The position numbers were made by a program, and so were the translations under genes. From NCBI GenBank assembly GCA_024508935.1, contig JANINW010000036.1, forward strand, positions 29,765-93,764: a stretch of 64,000 bases of DNA, given 5' to 3'. Origin of the DNA: Flavipsychrobacter sp. (GTDB taxonomy: Bacteria; Bacteroidota; Bacteroidia; Chitinophagales; Chitinophagaceae). The notes beneath the pieces were generated by a model. It did no database searches and had not been told where the DNA came from. It saw only the letters and a program-made list of their open reading frames with translations. Within the stretch, counting starts at the first letter, position 1; every line of letters starts with the position of its first letter. Positions 37,947-43,416 of this stretch are shown here, piece by piece.

Positions 37947-39485
37947 TTATCGCACTATTACAAACCCTTTGGCAATGCTACCCTGCAACCCGCCTGCGTG
38001 TAACCAATAACGCCCGGCCGGTAGCGTGCTGATGTCTACTGTACTATGATAAACAGAACTGTTGCTTGTTTGCCATTGCATAACGATATGTCCTGCGGCA
38101 TCAACAATGCTTATCTTATAAGATGCAGGCGAAGTATTGTTTATGCCGATATTGAGTTTGCTGGTAGCAGGTACAGGATAAAGTTCTAAACTACTTGCTG
38201 CCGATACATGCTGTACATTATTTGTAATCGGTGGCTTTACGCCCGATTTGAAACGCGCCATCGCTATCTTGTATCCGCTTGTGGTATTATAGTAACCACC
38301 TATTACTACATGGTTGCTATCATCTATAGCCATAGAGGTAACATTGTCGTAGCTACTGTTGACTGTAATTGTAACCAAACCCGAATCGCCAATGGTCGTA
38401 TCAAGTACTCCCATGCTACTGAATTTTGCCCATGCATACATATTATTCCCCGTAGTGCGGGCTGACATAATGATGTCTCCATTGCTGAGCGTATCTATAC
38501 GGTTGGTTGCATCGAACGTTTTAAAGCTGCGTGCGCTGATTCCGTTCACGCCAAAACTGTTGTCGACAGCACCATTGCTATTAAGGCGCAACAACAGGTT
38601 GTAATTGCCCTGGCTATGCGCCCCGATTACTATTTTTTGCCCGCTACCCTGTATCAAAACAGAGTAACCATATACATCCGTACCTATAGGCATCAATACT
38701 TGGCCATTAGTACCAAAGGCGTTGTCAAGATGGCCGCTGGTATCATAGCGCAGTGCCGCCAGTTGCCAATGGCTGCCATCATAAGTGTCACCTACGTGTA
38801 CTACCTTGCCATCGGCCTGTATAGCAGCGGCATAGGCGTTGTCGTCTTTAGGGCCTATATCTGTTACAGTAATACCGTTAGTACCGTAGCTGGCATCCAG
38901 CACGCCATTGGCAGTGTAGCGCATCACGATGAATTTCATATCCGTGCCGCCATTATTAGTGCATCCCGCCAATATGATCTTACCATCCGGTTGCAGTAAC
39001 ACATTGCGGCCGTATGTATTGTTAGTGCCTGTAGTTACCTGTGTTACTGCACGGCCATTCACGCCAAAACTGCTGTCTACCTTGCCTATAGCAGTAAAGC
39101 GCACCAGCTTCATACGGTAGCCTTGTCCATCGTAATAATCCCCGCATACTATGATCCGGCCATCGGGCTGACGTATTGCGCCATATACTGCCATATAGGT
39201 TGTGTCCAGGTCTATACCTGTACCATTATTGCCAAAACTGTTATCTACTGAACCATCAGCATTAAAGCGGGTAAGATGGAAGTGCGTACGCCCGTTCTCA
39301 AGGTAAGTACCGGCAGCCAGCAATTTGTTACCCGGAAGTGCCAGCAATTTCATACAAGTGGCACCCGAATCTATCAACACATTTACAATACCATTGGTGC
39401 CGAAGCTGCTATCGGGTGTGCCGGGCTGGCCATAGCTATTTATAAACAGAACGATTAACGTTGATACAAGTAAAAGCTTTTTCAT
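37947..39485 (-). CDS. Secreted delta-60 repeat protein with T9SS type A sorting domain
   Basis: ATG 39485 gives 512 residues with a signal peptide (about 1-20). Seven delta-60-like repeats of the kind DxxFGxNG follow (for example PDSSFGTNG near 24, VDNSFGNNG, VDSSFGVNG, LDASYGTNG, LDNAFGTNG, VDNSFGVNG, LDTTIGDSG), each spaced about 55-60 residues, forming a beta-propeller-like surface protein. The C-terminus (about 430-512; LELYPVPATSKLNIGI, PAGRYWLHAGG) is a type A sorting domain for the type IX secretion system. Role is probably adhesion or binding, unknown target. Confidence 0.88.
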   Translation of the reverse strand: MKKLLLVSTLIVLFINSYGQPGTPDSSFGTNGIVNVLIDSGATCMKLLALPGNKLLAAGTYLENGRTHFHLTRFNADGSVDNSFGNNGTGIDLDTTYMAVYGAIRQPDGRIIVCGDYYDGQGYRMKLVRFTAIGKVDSSFGVNGRAVTQVTTGTNNTYGRNVLLQPDGKIILAGCTNNGGTDMKFIVMRYTANGVLDASYGTNGITVTDIGPKDDNAYAAAIQADGKVVHVGDTYDGSHWQLAALRYDTSGHLDNAFGTNGQVLMPIGTDVYGYSVLIQGSGQKIVIGAHSQGNYNLLLRLNSNGAVDNSFGVNGISARSFKTFDATNRIDTLSNGDIIMSARTTGNNMYAWAKFSSMGVLDTTIGDSGLVTITVNSSYDNVTSMAIDDSNHVVIGGYYNTTSGYKIAMARFKSGVKPPITNNVQHVSAASSLELYPVPATSKLNIGINNTSPASYKISIVDAAGHIVMQWQTSNSSVYHSTVDISTLPAGRYWLHAGGLQGSIAKGFVIVR

Positions 39486-39650
39486 AGTCGGAAGTTTTAA
39501 TATAGAAGTATGAAAATAGGCTGTCTGTGCCGGGCAGGAAATAATCAATTTGTATTAGAAGGGGATTAGGAACAACAGATTGCAAAGGCTTTAAAAACAT
39601 TTTAATCTTCGTTTGCCGGCCTTTTAACTTATTTAAAACAGAAGCAGAAA

Positions 39651-40299: not shown

Positions 40300-42555
40300 T
40301 TAAAATATCTTATACCTCAGCCCTGCATAAATATTTCGTCCCATTACAGGCCCCCATATCATAGAGGCATCAAAGCCTGTATCGTATGGATTGGAGGTGC
40401 CTATCACAGGGTCGTGCTGCATGTAATTGGTAAGGTTTTCCCCGCCCAGGTATATTTCAAACACTTCTTTAAAAGTTTTGCTTATCTGGGCATTCATCTG
40501 CACAAAGGATGGACTATAGCCTTCAGCCTCTATGCCGCCACCATGCGCATGCACAGCGGGTACGCGTTTAGAACCTACCCATTGTATAGTATAATCGAAC
40601 TTCCAATGATTCTTTGTTTCGTAGCCCACATTACCAAAGGCACGGTGAGCGGCTATTAGCGGACGTTCTTTCAGTTGCATGTCATAAGTGGTGCGCACGT
40701 CATACCAGCGATAGGCCAGGCGCAGGTCCAGCCTGTGAATGATCTCATAATCGAGTTGTGCATGGAGGCTACTGGCAAACGACACTCCGGACAAGTTGTA
40801 GAAACGAACACTATGCGGATCTTCCACATCTACCACCACCTGGTTGCGAAAGTCGGTGTAATAGTAGTCAGCAGAAAAAGCACCATCGCGGTAGTTCAGC
40901 TGAAACTTTTGTGTAAAATTGATACCGTAATTCCAGGCTATTTCCGGCGCCAGCCCGTAAGGGTTGCCGGGGTTCGCAGCAGTTATAAGAAAGCCGCGGT
41001 TGCTGGCCATATAGCCCAGGTTCTCTGCAAAAATATTGGCGGTGCGCTGTGCCCTGCCAACCGATGCACGAAAGACCGTTTTTTTAAACGGGGCATATCG
41101 CAAGTGCAATCTTGGTGTAGCAAATGCACCATAGATATTGTGATAGTCGCCACGGATGCCAGCTACCAGATTGAACTTATCGGAAGCAGAATAGGCATAT
41201 TCCGCGAACGCACCGGGCACTATCTCGGTACGCGCATAAGGCGTGCCGGAGAGACGCTCATTATAATCATCCACCACATTGCTAAGGCCGGTCTTTATTA
41301 CATGGTTGGTATTATGGATAATGGTCTGAAATATCAGGTTGCTGTAGAAAGTGCGCTGTGTGGCCAAATAACTACGGCTGCCATATAATGCATCCTGGTT
41401 ATGATATATACCAGACAACTGCAATCCTATGCTGGTGCCTTTAGTTCCCTGGAACATCTTACCTATTTTAGCCCACCCCTCTGCACGCTGCGTATTCTGC
41501 TCATAACCCCAGGGCTTGCCTGAGACCTGCTCACCGCCCCGTTCATAATCCAATTGCCCGCCTGTATTTTCCACATACGTACCTTTCACACCACCCTGTA
41601 TTTCCCAGCCCTTCGGCCCGAACCAAAACCAGCGGTTGGCACCTACAAACTGTTTATCAAGCGGCTGATCCATAAAACCGTCATTGTTCATATCTACTTT
41701 CGCCCATTGCGATTTGGCATGCAGGAACAGGTTGGAAGACAGCTTTTCTGAAAACTTGTGCCTGTACACCAGGTTACCTTCAGTACGTCCCTGCGTGCTC
41801 TGGTACAGGTTAAACAGCCATTTTTCATCCTTTTCTTCAAAAGGCTTTTTCCACTCTACATTTATCTGCCCTGCCACGCTTTCATAGCCATTCACTACGC
41901 TGCCTGTGCCTTTGCTTAGCTGCATGCCTTCTATAAAGCTGCCCGGCGTATAGGTGAGACCGGTAATGGCCGCAAGGCCACGCGTATCAGGAATATTCTC
42001 GCGCGTGATAAGTGTATATGGACCGGCGAGGCCCAGCATTTGTATTTGCTTGTAGCCCGTAACAGCATCGGTAAATGCAACGTCTACTGATGGGGTGGTT
42101 TCAAAACTTTCGCTGAGGTTACAGCAGGCCGCTTTTAATAATTCGCGCTGGCCTATCTTTTCGCTTTTGATAGGATCTATCATGCTCATCTCTGTACTCT
42201 TGCGGCGTTGTTTTACCACCACTTCTTTCAGCTTGCGCGATTGTTCCAGGTTAATGGTCAAATGATTCTCGCCCGGATGGAGATCAATAGTATCCGATAA
42301 AAACCCTACATAAGAAACAATGATCTTCAAGCTTGTCTCCTGGATATCTAACTTAAATCTCCCTTCTGCATCTGTTTGCGTTGAAACCGTATTATCAACA
42401 GTGGTTACCATTGCACCTGCAAGGGTTTCGGCATTACCTTTCTCCCGCTGCCCGCTAACTATGCCGTGTACCGCTCTGAGCTGTTGTGCATTTGCGGCAG
42501 TACATACTATTACCAGCAAACCGCTAAACAGCAGCTTGTTTAATTTGCTTATCAT
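40300..42555 (-). CDS. TonB-dependent receptor (putative metal-linked)
   Basis: The 751-residue protein has a signal peptide (1-23, ending ANA), a carboxypeptidase-like domain (about 28-110), the plug domain (about 120-230) and a 22-strand barrel ending in F. The plug carries a Cys-Cys pair (C144-C145 in KAACCNLSES) followed by DVAFTDAVTGYKQIQMLGLAG, a form seen in receptors that sit beside HMA-domain genes. It would import a chelated metal or metallo-compound using TonB energy. It is the last gene of a three-gene minus-strand operon whose partners also hold Cys-Cys pairs. Confidence 0.88.
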   Translation of the reverse strand: MISKLNKLLFSGLLVIVCTAANAQQLRAVHGIVSGQREKGNAETLAGAMVTTVDNTVSTQTDAEGRFKLDIQETSLKIIVSYVGFLSDTIDLHPGENHLTINLEQSRKLKEVVVKQRRKSTEMSMIDPIKSEKIGQRELLKAACCNLSESFETTPSVDVAFTDAVTGYKQIQMLGLAGPYTLITRENIPDTRGLAAITGLTYTPGSFIEGMQLSKGTGSVVNGYESVAGQINVEWKKPFEEKDEKWLFNLYQSTQGRTEGNLVYRHKFSEKLSSNLFLHAKSQWAKVDMNNDGFMDQPLDKQFVGANRWFWFGPKGWEIQGGVKGTYVENTGGQLDYERGGEQVSGKPWGYEQNTQRAEGWAKIGKMFQGTKGTSIGLQLSGIYHNQDALYGSRSYLATQRTFYSNLIFQTIIHNTNHVIKTGLSNVVDDYNERLSGTPYARTEIVPGAFAEYAYSASDKFNLVAGIRGDYHNIYGAFATPRLHLRYAPFKKTVFRASVGRAQRTANIFAENLGYMASNRGFLITAANPGNPYGLAPEIAWNYGINFTQKFQLNYRDGAFSADYYYTDFRNQVVVDVEDPHSVRFYNLSGVSFASSLHAQLDYEIIHRLDLRLAYRWYDVRTTYDMQLKERPLIAAHRAFGNVGYETKNHWKFDYTIQWVGSKRVPAVHAHGGGIEAEGYSPSFVQMNAQISKTFKEVFEIYLGGENLTNYMQHDPVIGTSNPYDTGFDASMIWGPVMGRNIYAGLRYKIF

Positions 42556-42566
42556 ACTTGCCGGGG

Positions 42567-42911
42567 TTAATGTTCACAAGTATTTGTTTTGTAATGGCAG
42601 CACTCAGGCAGCTTATTGTAATCCGCATCAGACGCGGCTGTCTTTTCAGAGCTATGGCCTGCATGAGCCACACTCTTCAAAACAGCGTCAGGAGAGGTTT
42701 TTGAAGGCTTGTATATAAGTGTCAGCTGGTGACTGTCTTTGTTCCAGTCAGCTCTTTTTACGCCTTTAATATAGGCAGCGTCTTCAATGCGCTTTTTACA
42801 CATATTGCAGTTGCCTTCTACCTTAAAACTGGCAGTTGCAATGTCTTTATCCTGCGCAAATGAGGCAGAGCAGGAAAATATAATCGAAAGAATTATGATG
42901 ATTTGTTTCAT
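42567..42911 (-). CDS. Exported heavy-metal-associated (HMA) domain protein
   Basis: The 114-residue protein has a signal peptide (about 1-19, ending FAQ) and an HMA ferredoxin-like domain (about 24-85) with the metal-binding motif GNCNMCKKRIED (C35, C38). The C-terminal tail adds ECCHYKTNTCEH (C104, C105, C112 and two His), a second likely metal site. It should bind Cu(I) or another soft metal in the periplasm and pass it to or from the TonB receptor encoded 11 bases downstream. The periplasmic location distinguishes it from CopZ-type chaperones. Confidence 0.9.
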   Translation of the reverse strand: MKQIIIILSIIFSCSASFAQDKDIATASFKVEGNCNMCKKRIEDAAYIKGVKRADWNKDSHQLTLIYKPSKTSPDAVLKSVAHAGHSSEKTAASDADYNKLPECCHYKTNTCEH

Positions 42912-42984
42912 TATTATTACTTATTAAGGTTATTAAAATTACACTGGTTGCCATTGCGGCAAACAAAGAAAGGAAGATATAACC

Positions 42985-43398
42985 CTAACCGTAATAAGTA
43001 AAGCTGGAATGCAGTTTATATAATGGTATTTGCTGCCAGGAACCCGGCGGTGCATTTGCAAAATTTGTTGCTGAGCGATAAATTGAAGTATATACCGGGG
43101 CAACATAATTATATACGGCCGGCAATACGGCTATCTGCCATTCACCTGGCTGGAGTTTTAGTTTTATAGCCGCAATACTGTTCTGCTCACCTGATACTTT
43201 AGCCGTTATAACCTTGTCTTTGCAGCAATTGTCGCTTTTATCCGATTCATCGCCACAGGCGCCATCCTCACAACTGTTCTTACCGGCAAACAGGTTCCAC
43301 GACTCTAATTCCTGCCCGCAATAATGCAGGTTGATCATGATACCGGATACTGCTACCAGGTATATGAACATTACAGGTATGATTAAAAGGCGTTTCAT
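42985..43398 (-). CDS. Anchored Cys-rich protein of the HYC/CC/PP type
   Basis: The 137-residue protein has one N-terminal membrane helix (about 5-23), then HYCG (25-28), a Cys cluster (C43, C48, C58-C59 in NCCKDK), a beta-rich middle and a C-terminal APPGSW near 115. This order of HYC, CC and PP motifs matches a Bacteroidota family known by those motifs, with no biochemical role. The cysteines suggest metal binding on the periplasmic side. First of the three-gene operon; a -7 element TAAATTTG lies just upstream. Confidence 0.78.
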   Translation of the reverse strand: MKRLLIIPVMFIYLVAVSGIMINLHYCGQELESWNLFAGKNSCEDGACGDESDKSDNCCKDKVITAKVSGEQNSIAAIKLKLQPGEWQIAVLPAVYNYVAPVYTSIYRSATNFANAPPGSWQQIPLYKLHSSFTYYG

Positions 43399-43408
43399 CA
43401 GTTATATG

Positions 43409-43416
43409 CAAATTTA
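43409..43416 (-). promoter_or_regulatory. Promoter -7 element of the metal-linked operon
   Basis: TAAATTTG on the minus strand, ten bases before the ATG at 43398. No convincing -33 element. No inverted repeat resembling a metal-regulator operator was seen. Confidence 0.4.

Follow-up and report, generated by a model that had tools for sequence, protein, structure and literature searches.

A TonB-dependent receptor with a plug cysteine pair and its HMA and HYC partners: a candidate metal-import module of Bacteroidota

How copper passes from an outer-membrane receptor to its periplasmic users in Gram-negative bacteria is an open question. The closest described receptors are OprC and NosA of Pseudomonas, which are TonB-dependent and, in the available accounts, use a plug cysteine for copper. 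OprC binds the metal through Cys143 and Met147 of the plug together with His323 and Met325 of the barrel, according to the accessible text (PMC8610252). Another copper transporter of this kind is CrtA (BfrG) of Bordetella, encoded in some species with copper-insertion genes; the part of the account available places its orthologues mostly in beta- and gammaproteobacteria and gives them no conserved cysteine or methionine (PMC12914433). Within Bacteroidota, an OprC-like receptor of Bizionia argentinensis carrying the CxxxM-HxM motif has been proposed for copper. In the available portion of that paper the genome's other TonB proteins show no OprC similarity, HMA proteins are listed separately, and no receptor with a plug cysteine pair (CC) matched to an HMA protein is described (PMC11213822). 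Here we analyse a locus from Flavipsychrobacter sp., in a stretch of 64,000 nucleotides of contig JANINW010000036.1 (the window). Three open reading frames, co-directional on the minus strand, encode in order a HYC_CC_PP family protein (the HYC protein), an HMA-domain protein and a TonB-dependent receptor with a CC pair in its plug.

The window receptor differs from OprC, as far as the latter's available description goes, in its two adjacent cysteines, its HMA and HYC partners and its N-terminal carboxypeptidase-like domain. Membership of the OprC/NosA class was rejected because the CxxxM-HxM site is absent, with S148 and E149 standing four residues past C144 and C145. The invariant CC of the receptor family rules out CrtA, taken as the accessible account describes it, and the SusC/RagA model TIGR04056 gives 42.8 bits against a cut-off of 368.25, over the N-terminal part only. 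The HMA protein shares with the metallochaperones MerP and CopZ an HMA-like domain with a CxxC motif, but it falls under all of their NCBIfam cut-offs, adds a YxxLPxCC tail and has relatives that are fused to a TonB receptor. The first gene belongs to NF047658, a family whose name spells out the HYC, CC and PP motifs and whose available description gives no function; the present analysis links it to the CC receptor.

The available parts of PMC10434189 and PMC11960050 hold no account of the module. A full-text literature search, with subscription papers and bioRxiv preprints mostly outside its scope, gave no account of a CC-plug receptor with an HMA protein among the matches listed, and no paper for the name HYC_CC_PP. 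This is consistent with the original prediction, made from the window's sequence, which knew of no characterised example. The receptor-HMA-HYC module is probably a new form of TonB-dependent metal uptake, by an import route that has apparently not been described so far.

Conserved cysteine pairs in the three proteins

The window receptor matches Pfam models PF13715 (42.8 bits), PF07715 for the plug (24.2 bits against a cut-off of 23.9) and PF00593 for the barrel (81.2 against 27). Its cysteines are residues 18, 144 and 145, so the CC pair are the sole cysteines beyond Cys18, which lies in a signal-like start as judged by eye. Relatives were gathered by peptide patterns outside the plug motif or through their HYC gene, and were kept if they scored above 150 bits to the window receptor. 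The plug CC is present in all 52 relatives that retain the region (53 rows, one of them a fragment without it), in the context KAACCNL[SAG]ESFE or a close form. It is also present in 75 of 75 receptors of a larger set, part of which was chosen by the motif. All counts given below on 74 or 75 loci likewise rest partly on motif-chosen loci, while the 52 are motif-independent; close pairs of loci (for example L037/L039 and L065/L067) were each counted singly. The Cys, Met and His columns conserved at 90% or above in the 75-receptor set are C144, C145, H279 and the start methionine. The same genome encodes 22 other receptors with a PF07715 match, all without a CC in the plug; in one of them a CC stands elsewhere, at residue 16 of the open frame.

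The HMA protein has cysteines at residues 14, 35, 38, 104, 105 and 112. The CxxC motif, CNMC in the window protein, is kept in 54 of 55 stand-alone HMA relatives. The CC of the tail, typically within YxxLPxCC or YxxxHxCC, is kept in 50 of the 55 and in 13 of 13 HMA modules that are fused to a receptor.

The HYC protein scores 48 bits against the NF047658 cut-off of 28 (NCBIfam) and has cysteines at residues 27, 43, 48, 58 and 59; the CC is found in 59 of 59 HYC proteins near CC receptors. An AlphaFold2 model contains a helix at residues 3-18, through which the protein is probably anchored in the membrane. The mean predicted local distance difference test score (pLDDT) of 67 and the predicted template modelling score of 0.41 make this model too weak for a fold search. 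The original prediction had named a cysteine pair in each protein and had allowed that these might not be conserved among orthologues; a script listing all cysteines places the three pairs at the residues it gave, and they are kept in receptor, HMA tail and HYC protein alike. Judged from the aligned relatives, conservation of the CC pairs is far beyond chance.

Two further features of the receptors were noted. An EF-hand-like stretch, DMNNDGFMDQP, follows the conserved H279 (receptor residues 288-298, window positions 41662-41694). It was considered as a mark of the family and rejected, since the strict form D.N.DGF.D.P occurs in 51 of 74 CC receptors and a related form in a receptor of the same genome without CC. 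The runner-up within this genome on the profile of CC receptors, at 186 bits (L163, G000:C11:57017-57343), has no plug CC but carries a similar stretch, DVNKDGLSD.

Co-occurrence and fusion of receptor and HMA protein

We surveyed 247 genomes drawn from the phylum Bacteroidota. NF047658 has matches in 74 of them, 69 above the cut-off, and a strict CC-plug motif finds 43 receptors in 43 genomes. The motif gave 48 places, of which five were dropped for want of a motif-bearing open reading frame above 300 aa (G194:C43, G107:C12, G163:C16, G060:C11 and G098:C29); because it misses receptors with CCNI (L142, G084) and CCDL (L156, G002), 43 is a lower bound. For 32 of the 43 receptors an NF047658 match lies within 5 kb on the same strand, where rough chance would give 0.16% per receptor. 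At the level of whole genomes (n = 247), 35 have both, 8 the receptor only, 39 HYC only and 165 neither (odds ratio 18.5, p 1e-14, a value that is too small because the species are related).

The HMA gene is adjacent or fused in 33 of the 36 receptors with long flanks, the window's included, the exceptions being L119, L133 and L134; these 36 are survey receptors, and the other 7 all belong to genus g15. Among 74 CC-receptor loci, HMA is adjacent or fused in 64, HYC is present in 59, both are present in 50, and only L063 has neither. As a control we took 20 stretches around the 22 other receptors of the same genome. HYC was not matched in any of them and HMA just once, in L196, where the 297-codon frame runs on the strand opposite to its receptor. 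The original prediction had held open that the genes might not co-occur beyond this genome; they co-occur across the phylum.

At loci without a HYC match its place is often taken by a small Cys-rich protein (L040, L041, L045, L061, L063, L064, L102, L125-L127 and L185). Eight of these proteins were scanned with NF047658 and only that of L125 matched, weakly, at 15.7 bits, so they are candidate HYC relatives at most. In L133 the receptor is followed, in place of HMA, by an exported YHS-domain protein of 114 aa with a CC (L133:10817-11161), perhaps a displacement of HMA by an unrelated metal-binding domain.

Fusion was seen in 13 receptors, L156 and 12 of the 74, whose own N-terminus consists of the HMA domain, single or double, with its CC tail. 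These fused receptors fall into four clades of a quick tree from which the HMA part was excluded, as was L107 because it is too short. The fused state requires at least 3 changes, and the arrangements overall (HMA upstream, downstream, fused or none) require 11, a count that cannot separate gain from loss. The order of the genes thus varies but their association persists, as one would expect if the proteins make contact, and adjacency and N-terminal fusion together support a partnership of receptor and chaperone. The original prediction had proposed a periplasmic relay of all three proteins, with the plug CC as a putative docking point. Conservation and co-occurrence came out in its favour, and the repeated fusion of HMA to the receptor supports a physical relay more strongly than the evidence it had; the place of HYC in the hand-over fares less well, as only 32 of 99 HYC places have a strict-motif CC receptor within 5 kb on the same strand.

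Joined forms of another kind were also seen. HMA and a MauE-like membrane domain form one protein in L120:7876-8655 and L122:9446-10180 (by Pfam) and in L159:9500-10240 (by eye). These proteins adjoin HYC genes, and two of them sit between HYC and the CC receptor.

We examined a predicted structure of a fused relative (L054). Its barrel has pLDDT 82-95, and its HMA part (81-96 per block) shows a beta-alpha-beta-beta-alpha order with no fourth strand assigned. The best structural match of the model is BtuB (Z 27.9, 500 residues, 3.0 Å), with other receptors from Z 26.7; OprC (6z8q) comes at rank 50 with Z 23.5, within 1 of many receptors, so structure says nothing on the substrate. A receptor profile, searched against solved structures, gave 19 sequences at E up to 0.1. 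The match to 9gbc covers plug and N-terminal domain, that to SusC/RagA entries the N-terminal domain, and siderophore or colicin receptors match stretches of the barrel. In the 9gbc alignment the CC position corresponds to a gap and a glutamine, and the CC stands just ahead of a stretch that we take to correspond to the first plug helix of other receptors. We take that end of the plug to face the periplasm.

Metal, mechanism and alternative explanations

Copper would be the likeliest metal, going by the neighbouring P1B ATPases, which are mostly of Cu(I) type but few. We take CPC, a Y-N pair and M-x-x-S-S near the C-terminus to be the Cu(I) signature of these pumps. A P1B ATPase with this signature stands at the CC-receptor loci L102 and L124 and at 5 of 18 HYC loci without a receptor; the signature is present in six examined neighbouring P1B ATPases and, by script, in that of L160. 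AraC-type regulators with an N-terminal NMVCxxC stretch lie upstream in the same direction in L037, L039 and L124, the AraC part being confirmed by Pfam in L037 and L124, the two that were scanned. Locus L124 combines HYC, AraC-type regulator, Cu-type ATPase, receptor and HMA in one run. On plasmid pHALHY01 of Haliscomenobacter hydrossis, a divergent CC receptor (CCDLAGCFET; L187:14533-17178) follows a small VCCNGD protein and is itself followed by more TonB receptor genes and then, a few kb on, by a CusA/CzcA pump and a P-type ATPase. Plasmid stretches of Parabacteroides and Bernardetia have no copper-efflux gene annotated in their gene tables, which are incomplete. A heme-copper oxidase (PF00115, COX1) is found in 236 of the 247 genomes, which makes co-occurrence with the oxidase uninformative.

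We propose that the locus serves Bacteroidota in importing a metal, copper most likely, through the outer membrane, with a hand-over from plug CC to HMA and with HYC as buffer or acceptor; on the present evidence we hold the case for it to be evenly balanced. The receptor would carry the metal, free or chelated, across the outer membrane. On the periplasmic side, thiol exchange would transfer it in the form of Cu(I) from the plug CC to the HMA protein. This protein has a CxxC site and, in the tail, a further CC. Some lineages have the chaperone attached to the receptor, of which it forms the N-terminal domain. The Cys-rich, periplasmic and presumably membrane-anchored HYC protein would buffer or receive the metal. 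More tentatively, we suggest that the receptor has its own built-in metallochaperone, with direct thiol exchange from the invariant plug CC to a dedicated and sometimes tethered HMA domain. Since the receptor gene is accompanied by that of a candidate periplasmic partner, or in some species fused to it, such a hand-over could be tested on the plug CC, the HMA CxxC and the HMA tail CC.

Several observations weigh against this proposal. Ten of 74 loci lack HMA, although in one of them, L119, the contig ends soon past the receptor gene. The weak point of the HMA assignment is that the window domain scores 20.7 bits with PF00403, under the Pfam cut-off of 24.8. The CNMC motif and the conserved CxxC favour the original prediction's calling the second gene an HMA protein; the score does not. 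The HMA part of fused L156 also fails the cut-off (23.9 bits); the HMA protein of L102, the only stand-alone relative scanned, passes it with 55.5 bits. In the L054 model, residues 201-330, which include the plug, have block-mean pLDDT of only 31-76, so the model does not fix the position of the CC relative to the periplasm. For copper in particular, a Cu-type P1B ATPase is present within 7 kb at 2 of 75 receptor loci and missing at the other 73, and the AraC-type regulator occurs in just 3 of 75. In L152, a HYC locus without the receptor, one P1B ATPase of 668 aa does not show the Cu(I) signature, and HYC is closer to it than to the Cu-type ATPase there. There is no conserved methionine track in the 75-receptor set. 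The module is not tied to a heme-copper oxidase, since genome G238 contains the receptor but lacks a COX1 match.

One alternative is a copper-stress module. HMA and HYC would then sequester Cu(I) in the periplasm, and the receptor would serve as a sensor or to regain a copper chelate. HYC genes without a receptor adjoin RND pumps, confirmed in L143 (ACR_tran) and candidate in L144-L147 and L160, where five further open reading frames of 1214-1277 aa start like the L143 pump. The Cu-type ATPases at 5 of 18 such loci, the run in L124 and the plasmid relative that precedes a CusA/CzcA pump point the same way. TonB receptors, however, are importers, and the general lack of a Cu-type ATPase at receptor loci speaks against defence too; we consider this explanation unlikely. 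Instead of copper, the same import relay might serve zinc, silver, a xenogeneic chelate or some other soft metal or metallophore complex; in our view this is quite unlikely, though several observations favour it. Binding by HMA domains and CC pairs extends to several soft metals. The receptor lacks both the CxxxM-HxM site of OprC and conserved methionines, the L152 ATPase is not of Cu(I) type, and the module occurs in L058, L061 and L185, which we take to be anaerobic groups. A periplasmic protein of Pseudomonas with a ferredoxin-like fold belongs to zinc starvation in the available part of its description (PMC8561739). The Cu(I) signature in the six neighbouring ATPases and that of L160 argues against a metal other than copper.

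The CC pairs might be redox switches instead of metal sites, with disulphides, vicinal or between proteins, serving to gate the plug or to keep HMA attached to the receptor. Past the signal-like start the receptor's cysteines are limited to the CC, which persists without HMA in seven motif-independent loci (L053, L055, L056, L060, L063, L065 and L067). The HMA-context CxxC and the Cys-rich HYC partner suit metal binding better, and we regard a redox role as very unlikely. The module also points to a function for HYC_CC_PP proteins and for the class of TonB receptors found in at least 43 of 247 Bacteroidota genomes. In many Bacteroidota a small metal-carrying protein is encoded beside the CC receptor or as part of it, an arrangement suggestive of a dedicated route for copper or a similar metal.

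Layout of the locus

Coordinates are collected in the table below. The gene order and the intergenic gaps of 73 bases (HYC to HMA) and 11 bases (HMA to receptor) given by the original prediction were reproduced from the coordinates of the open reading frames. The promoter-like TAAATTTG lies 10 bases ahead of the first-gene ATG and agrees with TAnnTTTG, which we take to be the Bacteroidota promoter box; a single match of this kind proves nothing. A sigma-70 scan found 10 matches where 6.3 were expected (standard deviation 2.6), and a terminator scan found 2 where 2.9 were expected.

Table. Features of the three-gene locus, in window coordinates
Feature	Position	Strand	Basis or remark
HYC_CC_PP family protein, first gene, 137 aa	42985..43398	-	NF047658 match; N-terminal hydrophobic helix
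HMA-domain protein, exported, second gene, 114 aa	42567..42911	-	PF00403 below cut-off; CxxC
TonB-dependent receptor, third gene, 751 aa	40300..42555	-	CarbopepD_reg_2, plug and beta-barrel by Pfam
HYC motif H25-Y26-C27	43318..43326	-	C27 invariant, 25/25 aligned
C58-C59 of HYC protein	43222..43227	-	C58 invariant, C59 at least 90% (n = 25)
C35-N-M-C38 (CxxC) of HMA domain	42798..42809	-	Sequence
C104-C105 of HMA protein, in YxxLPxCC tail	42597..42602	-	Conserved tail CC
C144-C145 in receptor plug motif KAACCNLSESFETTPSVDV	42121..42126	-	CC conservation among relatives
Promoter-like TAAATTTG	43409..43416	-	Script; consensus match only

The same genome has a second HYC_CC_PP gene (L161:8921-9325, G000:C17), which follows a gene for a 1134-aa protein; the 18-kb stretch around it gave no match to a CC receptor or to HMA. 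Elsewhere in the window, positions 37947-39548 of the minus strand encode a secreted-looking protein of 533 aa with repeated GTNG stretches and an apparent type IX secretion tail.

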